Part shown: positions 26,113-56,041 of the stretch, in pieces | Position numbering within the stretch: position 1 is the stretch's first letter | Layout: each line of letters starts with the position of its first letter | Origin: an uncultured Bacteroidota bacterium | GTDB lineage: Bacteria > Bacteroidota > Bacteroidia > 2-12-FULL-35-15 | Direction of reading: 5' to 3' | Assembly: GCA_903926385.1 (NCBI GenBank) | Contig: CAIYIS010000008.1 | Location: 1 to 64,000, forward strand | Length of the DNA stretch: 64,000 bases | Program-made: the position numbers and the translations under genes | Notes under the pieces: generated by a model | Seen by the model: the letters and a program-made list of their open reading frames with translations, nothing else | Told to the model about the DNA's origin: nothing | Database searches by the model: none

Positions 26113-27903
26113 CTACTTTTTAGGAACAATAGGTTTAAAAATGGCTTTTTCTTTACTTTCACCATAATACTCCGGTTTTAAATATTTACCTTTATCTCTT
26201 CCCGTTTTCAGTGGTTCCACAGCTTTTGCATCAGGGTTATGTTGTAGGTAAGCATCATTTCGTTCGGCATACAGTTGCCACGAAAACTCCATTCCCGGTG
26301 TTCCTCCTCCCACTTTAAATTTTCCATTATTCACTTTTTCTTTTACAAACAATATAGCCGGAGCTCCAATAGGAGTGAGGTTATACGAAAAGTTAACATT
26401 AATAGCTGTAAAATAATCTGGCAAAGTAATCACCGCTTCTCCCTGTGCATCGCAGGTAGCATTTCCTCTGTACATATTCAGTACTTCAGGCGATTCTACT
26501 GTATAATGTTTCAAGTATTTGTTCGAAGGGTCTAATGGATGATCAATAGTAAATGCCTTAGTTCCATTGGCCGTAAAGTTACCAATAGCAATCATATTAT
26601 CTAGCGATGCCACACCATAACCTGTTCCTCCTGCCGATTCTCCTTCCACACCTACAAATCCACCACTTCCTGCCACACCTGCTTCATCTCCCGAAACCCC
26701 GCCTGTGTGAGAATTACTACCGAACACACCAAATCCTAATTCATAAGCCGACTGACCGGACACACCGTTAAATCCAACTCCTTCAACTCCCATTCCTCCT
26801 GTCGTTCTCAAATTATTTCCAAAAACACCGGCATCCGCAGTAGCTGTCGAAGCTATTTCGCCCGTAACCCCTCTTGCTGCACCGGTCGATTGTCCGTAAA
26901 CAGCAGAGTTATTAGCAGTACTACTATTGGTAGTTGCTTGTATGGTAGAAGTAGTGTTAGCAGCATTAGAAGAAACCGCATTAATAGCATTTCCTGTTCC
27001 ACTCAACGAGGCTCCTATGGCAGATGTTCCTGTTCCGGTTTGCTGAGCAAGTAAAGCAATACCAAATGCTCCGGTTCCCGAACTGTTAATGGTAACAGGC
27101 CCTGCATTGGCAGTTATGGTTCTTCCTGCACCTGCACCTCCAAAATTATAATCCGAATTTAATGTAGCTCCAGATGAACCTGTAGGACCTGTAGCTCCCG
27201 CAACTCCATTTGTTCCGGTTGCTCCCGTAACTCCGGTTGCTCCCGTAACTCCGGTAAGCCCTATAATTCCTGTTGGGCCTGTTGCACCTGTCGTTCCTGC
27301 CACTCCGTTGGTTCCATTATTTCCGGTTGCTCCTGTGGCTCCCGGAGTCCCGTTGGTACCGTTATTTCCTGTGGCTCCGGTTGCTCCCGCAACTCCATTA
27401 TTACCATTCAGCCCGTTAGTTCCGGTAGCGCCTGTAGCTCCCGGTGTTCCGTTAATACCATTCGTTCCGGTTGCACCTGTGGCTCCTGTTGCCCCTGCCG
27501 GTGAATTTTGAGCAAACAAAGCGTAAGGCACACTCATCAATTGCTGAGTTCCCATCACCACATATGCTGTTCCTCCGGTTATGTCCATACTTACTTCAAT
27601 AAAATAAGGTCCGTTAGCCCAGTTAATAGAATTAAAGGTTCCGAAACTAGCCGTTCCGTTCCCTACCACTAAATTCAGCAAACCGATATTGTTAGAAGTA
27701 GCCACATGTGTTTCGGTATAAACAATCGCCCCTCCCGAACTTCCCTGTCTTATACTTATTTCCAAACCAATTGGCTGACTGATTATAGCCACTCCTGCTG
27801 ATGTTCTGGCCACAGCCTGATAATTGAAACCCTGCGGGGCTTGTGCTTTCATTGCAAAGCTGAGTGCTAAACAAAATGTAATAAAAGTTGTAATTTTTTT
27901 CAT
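26113..27903 (-). CDS. Collagen-like exported surface protein (596 aa)
   Basis: A signal peptide (ending MKAQA, about residue 22) is followed by a beta-rich domain common to Bacteroidota surface proteins ([15 protein letters not shown] to [14 protein letters not shown], residues 23-136). Next come about 36 uninterrupted Gly-X-Y triplets (residues 137-246), mainly GAT, GTN, GVA and GNN. A long Asn/Thr/Ser/Gly-rich region of tail-fibre style follows, and then a C-terminal domain starting [19 protein letters not shown] that includes [20 protein letters not shown], a module I recognise from many bacterial surface proteins. The triplets should form a triple helix stalk. No T9SS sorting domain is visible. 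GAT triplets imply Thr-based (possibly glycosylated) stabilisation, not hydroxyproline. Confidence 0.9.
27166..27495 (-). repeat. Collagen-like Gly-X-Y coding repeat
   Basis: This is an internally repetitive segment encoding about 36 Gly-X-Y triplets within the collagen-like gene. Near-identical blocks such as [16 protein letters not shown] and [16 protein letters not shown] recur, so length change by slippage or unequal recombination is likely. Confidence 0.85.
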
Positions 27904-48318: not shown

Positions 48319-48547
48319 TTTGATTTTTTAGAGAAAATTAATCTTTACAAGTAATCTGAAGTATTATATCAGTAAAACAGCATTCTTTTCTCAATTTCTC
48401 ATTTATTTTGGGTACGAATATCGGACTTTTTTTGCATTGGAAATAACAATTAAATTTTCTGCTCTCTTTGTTTTTAGGTAAATGCCCCTTCTGAGCTTTC
48501 CATTAAAGCACTTCAATTAGAATTCTGACAAGTTAGCAAAAACCTTT

Positions 48548-48820
48548 TGCATATGCGAAAGCCCTCTTTGCAGATGCGAAAGCCCTCCTTGCAGATGTGC
48601 AAGCCCTCCTTGCAGATGCGAAAGCCTTCCTTGCAGATGCGAAAGCCCTCCTTGCAGATGTGCAAGCCCCCTTTTCGTATACGCAAGCCCTCATTGCAGA
48701 TGCGAAAGCCCTCTTTTCGTATGCGCAAGCCCTCATTGCAGATGCGAAAGCCCTCTTTTCGTATGCGCAAGCCCTCTTTGCAGATGCGAAAGCCCTCCTT
48801 GCAGATGCGAAAGCCACAAT
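48548..48820. repeat. Tandem repeat of a 21-bp unit, 13 copies
   Basis: Exactly 13 units of 21 bp. The main form starts TGCAGATGCGAAAGCCCTC; a second begins TTCGTATGCGCAAGCCCTC, and three units (1, 3, 6) carry single variations such as GATGTGCAAG. The two forms alternate in the centre (units 7-11), suggesting expansion as a 42-bp pair. All units share the length, so phase is never lost, and frames stay open on both strands (heptapeptide forms GFRICKE or AFASARR on minus, KPSLQMR on plus). With no start-codon context, RBS or homologue known to me, coding is unlikely. Contrast with CRISPR: no spacers. Confidence 0.9.
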
Positions 48821-48900: not shown

Positions 48901-48908
48901 TAGTTTTG
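48901..48908 (+). promoter_or_regulatory. -7 promoter element candidate for the WCPELCPK gene pair
   Basis: TAGTTTTG fits TAnnTTTG and lies 45 bp before the ATG at 48953. No TTTG at the normal 17-21-nt distance; the only one near (48884-48887) is 13 nt away. Confidence 0.35.
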
Positions 48909-48952: not shown

Positions 48953-49468
48953 ATGAAAAAACTTACATATTTATTATCGTTAGCTGTTGTTCTGTATTGC
49001 GTTTATGGCTTTGCCATCAAAAAAGAAAAAATCGCACCAGCGCCCACTCAAAAAGAATTAATCTTACAAGACTTATTAAAACTTCAGTATGATTTGAAAG
49101 GCAACCCGGATTACATCCAACCCTTTAGTGCAATTTCTCCGACAGTGTTAAAAGATGGACGAATGAATTTGAATCAAAAACTGGGGTATGCGGCCACTGA
49201 TGCTCAACATTTCGGTGTTATTTGTATCAATGATGTGATAAGTTTGCTACTTGAAAATGATGCAAATGTGATAAACAATTCGATTGTGTATTATCCTATT
49301 CTCGACAAAACAACCAATCAGAACGGAATAGTATGTGTGGGAGCTCAACTTATTCAATATCCAGATAGAAGTTCGGAAGTAAAGGTGTCATCAAATGCCA
49401 AGCATTATACTGCCAATTGGTGTCCTGAACTTTGTCCAAAAAATGCAGATGCCTCTTTAGTGAAATAG
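48953..49468 (+). CDS. Small exported protein with WCPELCPK motif, copy 1
   Basis: 171 residues with an N-terminal hydrophobic segment (LTYLLSLAVVLYCVYGFAI), a signal peptide or anchor, then a Pro/Lys-rich stretch and an alpha/beta-like domain. Conserved with the next gene: KLGYAATDAQHFGVICINDV (compare RLGYLKGTENQHYGIINISD), a YYPILD or IYPVWN strand, and the C-terminal YTANWCPELCPK. The Cys-Pro-Glu-Leu-Cys-Pro pattern could form a disulfide or bind metal. I do not recognise the family. An inverted repeat TTTAGTGAAA / TTTCACTAAA (49456-49496) overlaps the stop codon. Confidence 0.75.
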   Translation: MKKLTYLLSLAVVLYCVYGFAIKKEKIAPAPTQKELILQDLLKLQYDLKGNPDYIQPFSAISPTVLKDGRMNLNQKLGYAATDAQHFGVICINDVISLLLENDANVINNSIVYYPILDKTTNQNGIVCVGAQLIQYPDRSSEVKVSSNAKHYTANWCPELCPKNADASLVK

Positions 49469-49502
49469 ATTAAAAAAAAGTGTTTTTTTCACTAAAAAAA
49501 TA

Positions 49503-49510
49503 TAGATTTG
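49503..49510 (+). promoter_or_regulatory. -7 promoter element candidate for WCPELCPK copy 2
   Basis: TAGATTTG matches TAnnTTTG, 43 bp before the ATG at 49554. No clear -33 TTTG. The mirror position before copy 1 (48901) is also TAGTTTTG, 45 bp from its start, so the two genes may have kept duplicated promoters. Confidence 0.35.
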
Positions 49511-49553
49511 CCAACATAATTATTAATTGATTTATACAACAAACAAAAAAACT

Positions 49554-50024
49554 ATGAAAAATATTATTTTATTAATTTTAGCATTATCAGTTATTCTGAA
49601 TGCGTATTTAGGATATGAATATATTCAATGTAAAGATGGAAACGGGTCTCCATTAGTCCCCCCTCCTGCACTCAATGCAATCTGTGCAGAAAATAACCCC
49701 AACACCACAGACATCGACTTAAAACTCGGAATCGATAGTATTAAAGGAAGGTTGGGATACTTAAAAGGAACAGAAAATCAGCATTACGGAATTATTAATA
49801 TTAGTGATCTCAATAAAATAATTGCTACTAATTCTTTAAATAATGATGTTCTTCTTATCTATCCTGTTTGGAACGCTGTCTCTGCAGGTGGAATAGCTCA
49901 CGAAAGGGTAATTCTACGTTTTGCAAAATCAACAGTTTCAACCACTAATTGTAAGGATTTCTCTTTATCATATTCCAAAACCTTCTATACTCCTAGTTGG
50001 TGTCCAGAATTATGTCCAAAATAA
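49554..50024 (+). CDS. Small exported protein with WCPELCPK motif, copy 2
   Basis: 156 residues from the ATG at 49554; an upstream in-frame ATG (49527) adds nine residues without signal character. A hydrophobic N-terminus (NIILLILALSVILNAYLGY) is followed by a Cys, then a Pro-rich linker and a domain paralogous to the previous gene: shared GYLKGTENQHYGIINISDLN, LLIYPVWN and the C-terminal YTPSWCPELCPK end. Pair identity looks roughly 25-30 percent, so duplication is old. A perfect terminator follows at 50076-50119. The pair is probably one functional unit. No enzyme motif is visible. Confidence 0.75.
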   Translation: MKNIILLILALSVILNAYLGYEYIQCKDGNGSPLVPPPALNAICAENNPNTTDIDLKLGIDSIKGRLGYLKGTENQHYGIINISDLNKIIATNSLNNDVLLIYPVWNAVSAGGIAHERVILRFAKSTVSTTNCKDFSLSYSKTFYTPSWCPELCPK

Positions 50025-50075
50025 ATTCTTTAATGAATAAATCTAGACAACTAAAAAAGAGTTTAAAAAAAAAAG

Positions 50076-50119
50076 CACGAAGTATTCATTCCAACAGAAT
50101 GAATACTTCGTGTTTTTTT
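50076..50119 (+). terminator. Strong terminator after the WCPELCPK pair
   Basis: CACGAAGTATTCATTC (50076-50091) pairs perfectly with GAATGAATACTTCGTG (50097-50112) around CAACA and runs into seven T; an A-run on the left makes it potentially bidirectional. It ends 27 bp before the start codon of the SpoIIE-type gene. Confidence 0.85.
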
Positions 50120-50145: not shown

Positions 50146-52146
50146 ATGTCTACATTTCTGAAAATTATTCTTTTTCTGCTTTTTGTAATGATGGTTACTG
50201 GAGCACAAGCTCAGCCAAATTATGTTCGTACATTAGAATCCTTCCTCGACAAAAAAAAAATAGGGAAAACCGAAGTAGATAGCATTAATAAATTTCTTGA
50301 CTCTTCACTTTTGGTTAGCGGCACAAGTGAAAATCTAATTATTCAATTATTCCGAATCGAAAAAATCGCAAGCAATATTCCTTATGCTTCGGGGCTTGCA
50401 GATGTCAAGTTTAATATAGCTCGCCATTATATGATAAAGTCCAAAACAGCTTATGCTATGAAGTACTTTTTGGCTTCTTTATCCATTTCAGATGAAATAA
50501 GAGATACGTTAAGATCCGCTAGTGCCACACAACAGATAGGATTAGTTTATTATCAGCAAAAAAATTACGTTTCAGCATTAAAATACTTTAATAGCGCATC
50601 TCATTTATTCTCTTCCACAACTTTCAAACGAAAACAATCCCAGTGTTTTTATTTACAAGGCATCGTCTATAGGGATCTTTCCAATTATGATTCAGCGAAA
50701 TTTTTTTTCAATAAAGCAGCAAATATCAAGATTGAATTAAAAGATAGTATTGGACTAACTCAAATCTTCATGGAATTTGCGAACTTGTATATTATGGAAC
50801 GACTTTCGGACTCTGCTTTGATAATGCTAAAAAAGAGTACAGCTTTTTCTAATGATTATCAAAACGACCATTCATTTTTGACAAGAAAATATAAAATCGA
50901 AGCGCAAGCTTATTTAATCAAAAATCAAATCCAACCTGCTCTCATTGCTGCCAATTTATGCCTTAAGGAAGCAAAACTGAATGGAAGAGCTGTATCTTTG
51001 AGTGATGCCTATCAAATTTGTTTTCAGGTAAACTCAAAATTAAAGAGATATAAGGAGGCCTTTGAGTTTCAAAGTGATTTTTTAAAACTAAAAGACTCCT
51101 TATTTTCAATCGAAAATTCTCAAGCCTTAGCTAGAATAGAAATGGCAAATGCTGAAGCTAAATCTCAAATTGAAATTAATACTCTTTCGGCAGAAAAACA
51201 ACTGCGCGAAAAACTTAATTACTCTTTCGTTGCCGGTATCCTTTTGCTTGTTCTACTATCAATATTATTATACAATCGTATCAGAACAAAACAGCGCACT
51301 AATAATATTATCACTTTGCAAAAGAATTTGGTTGAGAAGAAGAACAACGAAATAACTCAATCCATCAATTATGCTAAACGAATACAAAATGCCATTCTAC
51401 CTTCAGATTACCTAATCAGGCAAAACCTCCCAAACTCCTTTATTCTTTACAAACCAAAAGACATTGTTGCAGGAGATTTCTATTGGATGGAAGTAACTGG
51501 TGATGCTATTTTATTTGCAGCCTGCGATTGCACGGGCCATGGAGTACCCGGTGCGTTAGTTTCTGTGGTTTGCCATAATGCACTCAACAGAGCTGTTCGT
51601 GAATTTGGACTAACTCAGCCTGCTGCTATTCTTAATAAAACAGCAGATCTGGTAATAGAGAACTTTTCGAAAGGTCAGGAAGAAATAAAGGATGGAATGG
51701 ATATTTCGCTTTGCTCGTATAACACAAAAACCAAACAACTCGAATGGGCCGGGGCTAATAATCCTTTATGGATAGTAAATAAAGCAAATGAAAACAATAT
51801 GGAAAACAATCAAATTTCCATTATTCAAGATAATTACCAGTTAACCGAAATTATTGCCGATAAGCAATCGATAGGCCACGACATTAGCAAACATATTTAC
51901 ACCAATCATTCCATCTCCATCAACAATGGCGATATTATCTATCTGTTCACAGATGGTTTTGCTGACCAATTTGGAGGCCCTACAGGACAGAAAAAACTTA
52001 CCCGAAAAAGATTCAAGAGCTTACTCCTATCCATTCAAAATAATTCCATCCAATCTCAAGGTATAAAACTGGATGAGTTTTTTGCTGAATATCGCAATAA
52101 AGAAGAGCAGATTGACGACATTCTGGTGATGGGAATAAAATTTTAA
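50146..52146 (+). CDS. TPR - transmembrane - SpoIIE-type phosphatase
   Basis: 666 residues. The signal peptide MSTFLKIILFLLFVMMVTGA precedes about six TPR-like repeats in the periplasm (residues 80-330, for example NIARHYMIKSKTAYAMKYFL, QIGLVYYQQKNYVSALKYFN). A membrane helix (about 355-375) and a short coiled coil lead to a cytoplasmic PPM/SpoIIE phosphatase domain with all metal motifs: DIVAGDFYWM, CDCTGHGVPGALVS, DGMDISLC, LFTDGFADQFGG and IDDILVMGIKF. Such proteins dephosphorylate anti-sigma antagonists or act in stress signalling in Bacteroidota. The partner is not in the window. A terminator ends 27 bp upstream, so its promoter must overlap it. Confidence 0.9.
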   Translation: MSTFLKIILFLLFVMMVTGAQAQPNYVRTLESFLDKKKIGKTEVDSINKFLDSSLLVSGTSENLIIQLFRIEKIASNIPYASGLADVKFNIARHYMIKSKTAYAMKYFLASLSISDEIRDTLRSASATQQIGLVYYQQKNYVSALKYFNSASHLFSSTTFKRKQSQCFYLQGIVYRDLSNYDSAKFFFNKAANIKIELKDSIGLTQIFMEFANLYIMERLSDSALIMLKKSTAFSNDYQNDHSFLTRKYKIEAQAYLIKNQIQPALIAANLCLKEAKLNGRAVSLSDAYQICFQVNSKLKRYKEAFEFQSDFLKLKDSLFSIENSQALARIEMANAEAKSQIEINTLSAEKQLREKLNYSFVAGILLLVLLSILLYNRIRTKQRTNNIITLQKNLVEKKNNEITQSINYAKRIQNAILPSDYLIRQNLPNSFILYKPKDIVAGDFYWMEVTGDAILFAACDCTGHGVPGALVSVVCHNALNRAVREFGLTQPAAILNKTADLVIENFSKGQEEIKDGMDISLCSYNTKTKQLEWAGANNPLWIVNKANENNMENNQISIIQDNYQLTEIIADKQSIGHDISKHIYTNHSISINNGDIIYLFTDGFADQFGGPTGQKKLTRKRFKSLLLSIQNNSIQSQGIKLDEFFAEYRNKEEQIDDILVMGIKF

Positions 52147-52243: not shown

Positions 52244-53260
52244 ATGCTGGATTTAAACGGAAAATCAATTTTAATCACCGGAGGAACGGGTTCGCTGGGA
52301 AAACATCTTACTAAAAATATTTTATCAAAGTTTCCAAATGTAAAACGTTTGGTCATCTATTCTCGTGACGAACAGAAACAGTTTGAAATGGCTCAGGAAT
52401 ACCCGCAGAGCAAATATCCTGCAATTCGGTATTTTATTGGCGATGTCCGCGATGCCGACAGATTGAAAAAAGCATTCAAAGATATTGAATTTGTAATTCA
52501 TACTGCTGCCATGAAACATGTTCCCATTGCAGAATACAATCCGATGGAATGTGTCAAAACCAATGTTCTTGGTGCCGAAAATGTAATTAACGCAGCACTC
52601 GAAACTGAAGTAAAAAATGTTGTTGCTCTCTCAACAGATAAAGCCGCTGCACCCATAAACCTTTATGGAGCAACTAAACTATGTTCTGATAAATTATTTG
52701 TTGCTGCAAACAATATTAGAGGAAAACATGACATCAAATTTTCAGTTGTACGTTACGGAAATGTAATGGGCTCTAATGGTTCAGTAATTCCTTTTTTTAT
52801 GAAGAAAAGAAAAGAAGGTGTTTTGCCAATTACAGATGTCAACATGACTCGATTCAATATTTCTTTGCAGGAAGGTGTAGATTTAGTTTTACATGCGCTC
52901 GAAAGCGCCTGGGGTGGAGAAATATTTGTACCTAAAATTCCTTCTTATAAAATAACTGACGTGGCAACAGCTGTTGGTCCTGACTGTAAACAAGAAGTTG
53001 TAGGAATTCGTCCTGGAGAAAAAGTACACGAAGAAATGATTACTTCTTCCGATTCATTCTCCACATATGATTTAGGAAAATACTATGCTATTCTACCTCA
53101 AGTTCCCAATTTTAAAATTGACGAGTATGTATCACACTTTAAAGCCAAATCCGTGGTACAAGGATTTCAGTACAACTCTGGTGAAAACAAAGAATGGATT
53201 AATGTTGACGATATCCGCAAACTGATTAAAGAAAATCTGGACGCTAACTTTAGCTGGTAA
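52244..53260 (+). CDS. pseB: UDP-GlcNAc 4,6-dehydratase (inverting), PseB
   Basis: First enzyme of pseudaminic acid synthesis: dehydrates and C5-epimerises UDP-N-acetylglucosamine, with bound NADP. 338 residues of extended short-chain dehydrogenase type. The nucleotide loop is SILITGGTGSLGKHL; also present are VIYSRDEQKQFEMAQ, FIGDVRDADRLKKAF, HTAAMKHVPIAEYNPMEC and the catalytic YGATKLCSDKLFV (Tyr-x3-Lys) with VVRYGNVMGSNGSVI. FlaA1/PseB-type rather than retaining-type. It is the promoter-proximal gene of the locus. Confidence 0.95.
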   Translation: MLDLNGKSILITGGTGSLGKHLTKNILSKFPNVKRLVIYSRDEQKQFEMAQEYPQSKYPAIRYFIGDVRDADRLKKAFKDIEFVIHTAAMKHVPIAEYNPMECVKTNVLGAENVINAALETEVKNVVALSTDKAAAPINLYGATKLCSDKLFVAANNIRGKHDIKFSVVRYGNVMGSNGSVIPFFMKKRKEGVLPITDVNMTRFNISLQEGVDLVLHALESAWGGEIFVPKIPSYKITDVATAVGPDCKQEVVGIRPGEKVHEEMITSSDSFSTYDLGKYYAILPQVPNFKIDEYVSHFKAKSVVQGFQYNSGENKEWINVDDIRKLIKENLDANFSW

Positions 53261-53283
53261 GTAATACAAGGATAAAATAACTA

Positions 53284-54459
53284 ATGAGCCAAACAAAAAC
53301 AAAAATAATTCCTTACGGAAAACAAACCATTACAGATGCCGACATCGAAGCAGTCGTTACTGTTCTCAAATCCGATTTTTTAACTCAAGGTCCTACAATT
53401 GCAGAGTTTGAGAAGAAATTTGCAGAGTATGTGGGAGCTAAGTATGCTGTAGCTTTAGCCAACGGAACAGCTGCATTGCATTTATGCGCCATGGCTTTGG
53501 ATGTTGATTCAACCACTAGAGTTATTACCACACCAATCACATTCGCGGCATCTGCCAATTGTGTTAGATATTGTGGTGGCGAAGTTCACTTTGCTGACAT
53601 TGATCCGGAAACTTTTTTACTGGATATTAATAAAGTTCGTGCATTGCTCGAAAAACATCCCAAAGGCTATTTTAAAGGCATCATCCCAGTCGATTTTGCC
53701 GGCAACCCTGTCAACTTAGAAGCTTTCCGCAAATTAGCAGACGAATTTGGTTGCTGGATTATTGAAGATGCTTGCCACGCACCGGGAGGTTACTTTATTG
53801 ATAGCAATAATAACCAACAAAAATGCGGGAATGGCAATTTCGCTGATCTTGCCATTTTTTCATTTCACCCCGTTAAACATATTGCAACAGGCGAAGGTGG
53901 TATGATTACTACCAACAGTAAAGTACTGTATGACAAATTAAATTTATTGCGCACACATGGAATTACTAAAGACGCCAGTAAATTCATTAACAATCCTGAC
54001 GAAATAGCTCAGGGAGGTTGGTACTACGAGATGCAACAACTCGGATATAATTACAGATTAACAGATTTCCAAGCCGCTTTAGGTGTTTCCCAACTGACTC
54101 GGGCAGACGAAAATCTCTCCAGAAGACGCATTCTTGCCGACCGTTATGATGAGGCTTTAAAATCAAAAAACATCACCATCCCTGATTCCTTTGCTGGAAA
54201 TGCATATCATTTGTACGTTATACAGGTTGCTAACAGACTTGAATTATACAATCGTTTAAAAGAAAAAAACATTTTTGCACAAGTACATTATGTTCCTTGC
54301 CATTTAATGCCTTATTACTCACAATTCGGTTATAAAAAAGGCGACTTTCCGCATGCAGAAAATTATTACAACCATTGCCTGAGTATCCCTATGTATCATT
54401 CATTGAGCAATGATGATCAGGATTACGTTATCAGTCAAATCAAAGAATTTATTGGGTAA
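53284..54459 (+). CDS. pseC: UDP-4-keto-6-deoxy-HexNAc aminotransferase, PseC
   Basis: PLP-dependent DegT/DnrJ/EryC1-family transaminase that adds the 4-amino group from glutamate to the PseB product. 391 residues. It starts IPYGKQTITDADIEAVVTVL with FLTQGPTIAEFEKKFAEYVG, and has YAVALANGTAALHLCA. The Schiff-base lysine is in FSFHPVKHIATGEGG. NYRLTDFQAALGVSQL is the family's C-terminal signature. It follows pseB by 23 bp. Confidence 0.94.
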   Translation: MSQTKTKIIPYGKQTITDADIEAVVTVLKSDFLTQGPTIAEFEKKFAEYVGAKYAVALANGTAALHLCAMALDVDSTTRVITTPITFAASANCVRYCGGEVHFADIDPETFLLDINKVRALLEKHPKGYFKGIIPVDFAGNPVNLEAFRKLADEFGCWIIEDACHAPGGYFIDSNNNQQKCGNGNFADLAIFSFHPVKHIATGEGGMITTNSKVLYDKLNLLRTHGITKDASKFINNPDEIAQGGWYYEMQQLGYNYRLTDFQAALGVSQLTRADENLSRRRILADRYDEALKSKNITIPDSFAGNAYHLYVIQVANRLELYNRLKEKNIFAQVHYVPCHLMPYYSQFGYKKGDFPHAENYYNHCLSIPMYHSLSNDDQDYVISQIKEFIG

Positions 54460-54468
54460 GCACACAAA

Positions 54469-55299
54469 ATGAATACAAAAATTGATACACAAATGGAGGC
54501 TATATCCATCAACGAATATTTTAACATCGAAAATCCCTGGACGCTAAGATTACTTGGACTCACACCATTCCAAAAAAATAGAGATATTAACCAGGTTGAA
54601 AACGAATACAATCTCGACAAATACGCTAAACTACTGGAATTCGATTTTAAAACTGCTGCTGAATACAAAGCTAAAGAATTTGAACAAGCGGGGTTACATC
54701 CAACTGAAGGATTAATGTATATTTCCAAAGGTGATAACATTTTTAAAACAACGGTAGAAAATGCACGAGAAATCTATTACAACATTATCAACTCTACATT
54801 AACCAAGTTTTCTTCTTCAAATTTTTGTGAACTTGGATGTGGATACGGTTATAATTTAGAATTTCTTGGAAAAAATTTTTATGGAGGCGACTACTCATCT
54901 AATGCTGTAAAAATTGGTCAAAAAGTAGGCTTGGATGTCAGAGAGTTTAACTATTATGAAGAAAATGATTATAAGTTTATCAAACCTGATTCAACTATTT
55001 TCACCACGCATAGTATTGAGCAGATTCCTGATGCAAATGTGATTATTAATAATCTTGAAAAGCAAAAAAAGAATATTAATTATGTAGTACATTTTGAACC
55101 AACCATTGTTGAAGATCGTTCCTCTTTACTGGGATTACTTCGAAACAAATACCTCGAATTGAATGATTACAATCGTAATTTAATTTCTGTTTTAAAAGGA
55201 AGAACAGACATTGAAATTCTCGAATTAGAAACGGATGTTTTTGGCTTGGTCCCTCTTAACACCACGAACCTTATCGTTTGGAAATTCAAAAACAAATAA
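54469..55299 (+). CDS. SAM-dependent methyltransferase in the nonulosonate locus
   Basis: 276 residues of class I methyltransferase. The glycine loop is FCELGCGYGYNLEFLGK (about 120-136) followed by GGDYSSNAVKIGQKVG and THSIEQIPDANVIINNL. The N-terminal 100 residues form an extra helical region. It is inside the pse operon, so methylation of the nonulosonate or an attached residue is the likely task. It could also act on another glycan. No close family name comes to mind. It is not part of the standard six-step Pse pathway. Confidence 0.78.
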   Translation: MNTKIDTQMEAISINEYFNIENPWTLRLLGLTPFQKNRDINQVENEYNLDKYAKLLEFDFKTAAEYKAKEFEQAGLHPTEGLMYISKGDNIFKTTVENAREIYYNIINSTLTKFSSSNFCELGCGYGYNLEFLGKNFYGGDYSSNAVKIGQKVGLDVREFNYYEENDYKFIKPDSTIFTTHSIEQIPDANVIINNLEKQKKNINYVVHFEPTIVEDRSSLLGLLRNKYLELNDYNRNLISVLKGRTDIEILELETDVFGLVPLNTTNLIVWKFKNK

Positions 55300-55318
55300 A
55301 GACCGCTTGCAAAACACA

Positions 55319-56041
55319 TTGAACATAGGAATCATCACACAGGCACGCATGACAAGCACTCGCTTGCCTGGCAAAGTATTCAAAGAAATAAATTCAAAGT
55401 CGCTCCTACTCTATCATATTCAGCGTTTGCAACAAACCGGATTCGATATTGCCATAGCTACTACTACCAACGATACAGACGATTGCATATGTCAATTTGC
55501 AGAAGCCAACCATTTGAATTACCACCGCGGCAGCGAATCCAACGTGCTCAGCAGGTATTACGAAACAGCAACCAAGTTAAAGTACGATGTCATTGTGCGT
55601 GTAACATCAGATTGCCCGCTTATCGATCCGCACTTGATACGTAACAACGTAGAAAAATATTTGAAACTAAACAATACCAATTTATACATGGCAAATGGTG
55701 TTGAACGTACCTTTGCGCGTGGTTTCGATTTCGAAGTATTTAGTTACGACTTATTGAAAGAAGCTTATAACAAGGCTTCTGACGAAGGCGACCAAGAGCA
55801 TGTAACGCCATATATTTGGAAAAACCGTTCGGGCAAAGTGGAGTTTTATCATGTAAAACAAACCATCGACCATAGCTCTTTCCGAATAACAGTAGACACA
55901 GCAGACGATTTCGAATTGATAAAAACGTTGATTGAAAAATACAAAGCTGATACATTGCCTTATACCGAAATCGAAAGCATACTTGCTCAACACCCTGAAT
56001 TGGTTGCCATCAATGCTCACATCGAACAAAAAAAAGTATAA
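55319..56041 (+). CDS. SpsF-type cytidylyltransferase, PseF candidate
   Basis: Activates the nonulosonate as its CMP derivative, using CTP. 240 residues. It starts LNIGIITQARMTSTRLPGKV when read from the TTG at 55319, aligning with family members that start MKIGIIxQARM; the GSxRLPGK-like loop binds the nucleotide triphosphate. VIVRVTSDCPLIDP is the metal motif, followed by HVTPYIW and RITVDTADDFELIKTL. An ATG at 55235 would add 28 residues overlapping the methyltransferase gene by 65 bp; unlikely. The TTG at 55307 is another option. SpsF-type, not canonical NeuA-type, so PseF assignment is by context. Confidence 0.75.
   Translation: MNIGIITQARMTSTRLPGKVFKEINSKSLLLYHIQRLQQTGFDIAIATTTNDTDDCICQFAEANHLNYHRGSESNVLSRYYETATKLKYDVIVRVTSDCPLIDPHLIRNNVEKYLKLNNTNLYMANGVERTFARGFDFEVFSYDLLKEAYNKASDEGDQEHVTPYIWKNRSGKVEFYHVKQTIDHSSFRITVDTADDFELIKTLIEKYKADTLPYTEIESILAQHPELVAINAHIEQKKV

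Follow-up and report, generated by a model that had tools for sequence, protein, structure and literature searches.

Small exported WCPxxCP proteins as probable extracytoplasmic partners of a TPR sensor in Bacteroidota

The RRNPP systems of Bacillota, such as Rap-Phr, PlcR-PapR and Rgg-SHP, are defined by adjacent genes for a propeptide and a TPR receptor (PMC10075063), the latter being cytoplasmic. TPR domains in complex with peptides are also known from the eukaryotic, cytoplasmic LGN/Pins proteins, whose peptide partners come from Inscuteable, NuMA or Frmpd, and the inner groove of LGN binds extended peptides (PMC3438535).

The window analyzed here, a stretch of 64,000 nucleotides from an uncultured Bacteroidota bacterium, contains two tandem genes for small exported proteins, P0001 and P0002, followed directly by the gene of a TPR sensor with a transmembrane (TM) segment and a SpoIIE/PP2C output domain. 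We propose, with a probability of roughly 0.6, that the two small genes encode the extracytoplasmic partner, a ligand or co-sensor, of this TPR receptor. The features of the locus are as follows.

48901..48908, + strand: -7 box TAGTTTTG (TAnnTTTG type) of the first small gene, 52 nt before the start codon
48953..49468, + strand: P0001, first small exported protein, 171 aa (ORF call, BLASTP, family alignment)
49418..49441, + strand: WCPELCPK motif, residues 156-163 of P0001
49503..49510, + strand: -7 box TAGATTTG of the second small gene, 51 nt before the start codon
49554..50024, + strand: P0002, second small exported protein, 156 aa (ORF call, BLASTP, family alignment)
49998..50021, + strand: WCPELCPK motif, residues 149-156, the C-terminus of P0002
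50069..50119, + strand: strong terminator-like hairpin between the small genes and the sensor gene
50146..52146, + strand: TPR-TM-SpoIIE/PP2C sensor, 666 aa, with signal peptide (~1-22), TPR superhelix (~41-320), coiled coil, TM segment (~357-378) and PP2C domain (453-665)

By analogy, the arrangement resembles the known pairs of exported ligand and TPR receptor in that a small exported product is encoded beside a receptor with a superhelix of the peptide-binding type, and Rap proteins are among its fold matches. It fails, however, the defining feature of RRNPP, the cytoplasmic receptor: the sensor begins with a signal peptide, its TPR half, placed before the TM segment and the output domain, would be extracytoplasmic, and the output is a PP2C phosphatase or a cyclase with no DNA-binding domain. 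The exported neighbor is present at all five loci described below, but at 156–194 residues it is much longer than a short propeptide and it has a conserved core, and the cassette is found in Bacteroidota rather than Bacillota.

The output domain of the sensor is similar to that of the SiaA-type phosphatases and passes the gathering score of Pfam SpoIIE (55.5 bits vs. 25). The NCBIfam SiaA equivalog (NF038263) aligns over residues 380-666, but at 171.6 bits it is far below the cut-off of 700. Unlike in SiaA, the sensor half is made of TPRs, and no SiaB-, SiaC- or SiaD-like gene was noticed adjoining it.

P0001 and P0002 were found exactly where the sequence-only reading had placed two tandem open reading frames (48953-49468 and 49554-50024), and their claimed paralogy is borne out by BLASTP (E 8e-13, 30 of 103 residues identical, 29%). 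Both show by inspection a hydrophobic N-terminal export segment. All eight residues of WCPELCPK, which had been claimed to be shared, are the same in the two proteins, while their codons differ by synonymous changes only (CCT/CCA, CTT/TTA), which indicates constraint on the tail at the protein level. The matching tails were judged not to stem from a recent duplication or from gene conversion, because of these synonymous differences and because the two copies, at 32% identity, are no closer than P0001 is to its relatives in other species (32–40%). The description of both proteins as ending in this motif holds for P0002; in P0001 it is followed by NADASLVK. The proposed “TGY” core is absent, both proteins reading LGY..(A/N)QH(F/Y)G, and the view that only the tail and the core are conserved was too narrow, as shown by the residues outside them that are invariant in the family (see below).

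The structure of P0001 was modeled poorly (pLDDT 62, below 50 in the tail), which makes any docking of the tail speculative. A Foldseek search with this model gave a best E of 0.018 with a TM-score of 0.15 and was discarded.

The family was defined here by an N-terminal export segment, a core with the D, NN and YP residues, and WCPxxCP near the C-terminus. All six members fit this definition, the export segment being visible in five and the sixth being truncated by the end of its contig. Nine residues are invariant (P0001 numbering): D94, N108, Y114, P115, W156, C157, P158, C161 and P162. The histidine of the QH pair is kept in five of the six, and the core is 28–40% identical among members. 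The tail occurs as WCPELCP, WCPDICP, WCPDMCP, WCPSICP and WCPESCP. In three members it is followed by a further 8–22 residues, which argues against a strictly C-terminal docking peptide. The member at locus L051 carries a lipobox-like LLSQSC. The small proteins may resemble others from Bacteroidota whose C-termini carry Cys-Pro.

The sequence-only reading did not recognize the family, and this stands. Neither P0001 nor P0002 gave a Pfam family even at E 10, profile searches of Pfam, NCBIfam and PDB with the small family returned nothing credible, and the family is thus undescribed in these libraries. Contrary to the outcome that this reading had named as refuting, homologs were found in other species, and every one keeps WCPxxCP; they belong to three further species of the genus (G004, with two loci, G011 and G026) among the 36 genus genomes searched. 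Outside the genus, no credible member was obtained with profiles on 395 class and 395 phylum genomes, or with a core-only profile on 325 class genomes, these samples overlapping. The weak matches there (E 1e-4 to 0.3) were signal peptides or short pieces, with no exported protein bearing a CPxxCP tail among them. Searches of viral contigs and phages also gave no relatives. Judged from its confinement to related members of the genus and from the low core identity, the family is young and fast-evolving.

The TPR sensor is the gene next downstream of the small gene or genes at all five loci, namely the window, L049 of G026, L050 and L051 of G004, and L052 of G011. It lies outside the stretch 48953-50024 with which the sequence-only reading was concerned. 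That reading took the two paralogs for a functional pair; a single copy precedes the sensor in G026, and the pairing that is constant is that of the small protein with the TPR sensor. As the small proteins always adjoin one kind of sensor, they are probably its partner or signal. Four loci have SpoIIE/PP2C as the output domain. The sensor at L051 (871-2676, G004) has a class III nucleotide cyclase instead, a swap of output domain inside one TPR receptor subfamily. That the linkage to the subfamily holds whatever the output domain supports the partner reading.

In their TPR halves, the four remaining partnered sensors are 39–49% identical to the sensor of the window. With the TPR half of the window sensor as query, five matches were obtained at E 1e-81 or better, all of them partnered, and the rest were at E 1e-26 and worse. 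This sensor subfamily and the small protein occur in the same four of the 36 genus genomes; the probability of such co-occurrence is arithmetically 1 in 58,905 for independent genomes, a figure that overstates the case because the tree shows the carriers to be related. The best sensor from outside the subfamily was checked in 26 genomes and had no small-family gene upstream. Of 395 class genomes, G000 and G026 alone gave a sensor match at E 1e-40 or better. G004, a metagenome-assembled genome with 4% contamination, has two copies of both genes, in each case side by side, and is the source of two of the five loci.

The five loci stem from one subclade and are not independent, and a neighborhood alone can be inherited. 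The small protein may be a lineage-specific envelope protein which stayed beside the sensor gene by chance, with no joint function. In a tree of hisS, a branch with support 93/66, seen in 92% of bootstrap trees, has on one side all the carriers with hisS (G000, G011 and G026), adjoined by G034, which is without both genes; hisS was not found in G004. A terminator also splits the genes in the PP2C loci. We nevertheless consider mere common descent improbable: the four carrier genomes (of 36) all have both genes, the two are present together in two copies in G004, the groove residues described below are changed in exactly the partnered sensors, and the small gene and sensor remain together while other neighbors change. 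The window and G026 share the order hutH-hisS-[small gene(s)-sensor]-pseB-pseC, while in G004 and G011 the outer neighbors differ as far as the contigs reach. In G014 (L105), hisS is divergent from pseB with ~250 bp between them, and neither small genes nor sensor are present there.

Several other features of the region were recorded. The genes directly after the sensor (52244-56041) are probably of the pseudaminic-acid type and comprise pseB, pseC, a methyltransferase and a cytidylyltransferase-like gene. A 21-bp repeat (TTTGCAGATGCGAAAGCCCTC) is present in ~13 copies at 48546-48815, in the stretch that separates hisS from the first small gene; this unit was found only at this site in the genome of the window, and its reading frames stay open on both strands. 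Another tandem array, with periods of 41, 62 and 103 bp (TTCCTATCATCGCG...CCACTTTT), occupies positions 627-1114, and repeats with periods of 18, 27 and 54 bp are present at 27191-27489, where the reverse complement resembles a collagen-like Gly-x-y coding region. The HisS of G026 (L049 9433-10884) is 29 residues longer than that of the window, with the extra sequence located after “LDSGDYLKDAPTEDYFKEIG”, and several further members of the genus likewise match from residue 77–85 on only.

The duplicated -7 elements claimed from the sequence are present, one per small gene, TAGTTTTG at 48901 and TAGATTTG at 49503. A TAGnTTTG box precedes every small gene for which upstream sequence is available, five in all (the two of the window and three others), against a background of 0.71 per kb per strand, while none was found in the 160 nt upstream of the sensor start. 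The strong terminator was likewise correctly called, with 23-nt arms at 50069-50119, -29.9 kcal/mol and z -13.7. A hairpin with a U tract lies ahead of the sensor in all four PP2C loci, ~17–26 nt from its start (guessed in G011), with energies of -29.9, -16.0, -17.4 and -15.5 kcal/mol and z of -13.7 to -4.9; the sequences differ, while the position is kept. The cyclase locus (L051) has no hairpin before the sensor. A hairpin between the two small genes was also considered, and is too weak (z -0.8) to be a terminator comparable to that downstream of P0002. Such a layout of promoters and terminator would yield many partner molecules per receptor, with the small proteins in surplus and expression of the sensor dependent on read-through or on an unrecognized promoter.

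The TPR half of the window sensor was modeled at pLDDT 82. Its closest solved folds are LGN/Pins TPR domains bound to peptides (E 3.6e-9), followed lower by Rap proteins, some with Phr peptides. Unpartnered sensors have mostly Asn at the repeating helix-A positions 90, 130, 170 and 210; in 26 of them, Asn was counted 22 times at position 130, 18 at 170 and 21 at 210. The five partnered sensors keep N90 and have Q/N at 130, L at 170 and E at 210, so that, as a difference from LGN/Pins, most of the groove asparagines are replaced. K248 and E252 are invariant in the partnered sensors, and the 26 unpartnered ones are without them, save one exception with K. The groove side was assigned from the helix order in the TPR model and the difference is correlative; it agrees with a change of groove ligand upon the emergence of the partner, and could instead reflect another ligand.

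The conserved cysteines of the small proteins also allow for a signal that is chemical rather than the protein itself. In that case the small protein would still be the partner of the receptor, but as a metal- or redox-sensing accessory, whose WCPxxCP binds copper or zinc or switches in the periplasm between its dithiol and disulfide forms, and whose state is read by the TPR sensor. SCO copper chaperones contain a CPxxCP string with the CxxxC spacing, as do the proteins described here, where W-C-P-x-x-C-P is invariant among six otherwise divergent members and the histidine is nearly always kept. Moreover, four members have both C90 and C128 (P0001 numbering) and P0002 has neither, as would be expected for a disulfide pair, although the L051 protein has only one of the two. 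Identity with SCO1/SenC was rejected: the family is absent from the Pfam results at E 10 for P0001 and P0002 and from the weak matches of the six members at E 5, and there is no match to any other metal-binding family. Unlike in SCO1/SenC, the motif is near the C-terminus with no thioredoxin-like domain beyond it, and therefore no distal copper-binding His follows. Sensing of metal or redox state is a doubtful explanation, if one with some weight.

The small proteins might also be precursors of peptide pheromones. Processing would then free a WCPxxCP peptide from the C-terminus, and after its release the TPR receptor of the producing cell or of its neighbors would bind it, in an outside-the-cell analog of Rap-Phr signaling. 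As in RRNPP systems (PMC10075063), an exported gene adjoins that of a TPR receptor; the sensor TPR fold resembles Rap-Phr complexes, the motif is at or near the C-terminus, and the partner gene is tandemly duplicated, duplicated pheromones being known within Rap-Phr propeptides (PMC11343458). However, conservation also covers a core of 80 residues, in which D, N and YP are invariant, more than a leader requires, and residues extend past the motif in half of the members. Pheromones usually diversify, while this tail barely varies. A pheromone origin is accordingly quite improbable.

The preferred reading remains that of a protein partner. The small proteins would be exported and then held at or released into the periplasm, where their core would bind in the concave groove of the TPR superhelix. 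Perhaps the WCPxxCP segment, exposed and fixed by a disulfide bond or a bound metal ion, would dock in the groove as well. Binding would be signaled through the coiled coil and the TM segment to the cytoplasmic PP2C phosphatase, or cyclase. Through the tandem duplicate, the single receptor would have two partner variants in the species of the window. More tentatively, the locus may represent a two-gene Bacteroidota signaling cassette made up of an extracytoplasmic TPR receptor, whose PP2C and cyclase outputs are interchangeable, and its dedicated ligand, an exported protein with a Cys tail. Such a cassette would be an outside-the-cell counterpart of RRNPP.

TPR-TM sensors are abundant in genomes of this group, with up to 30 matches in a single genome. 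In the literature on TPR/PP2C sensors in Bacteroidetes, no study of a small-protein/sensor pair was found, nor any paper naming a ligand for the TPR-TM sensors of the group. A subfamily with a dedicated exported neighbor would offer a defined protein-receptor pair for the study of extracytoplasmic TPR recognition, and the same pair would allow the coupling of this recognition to a PP2C or a cyclase output to be studied.
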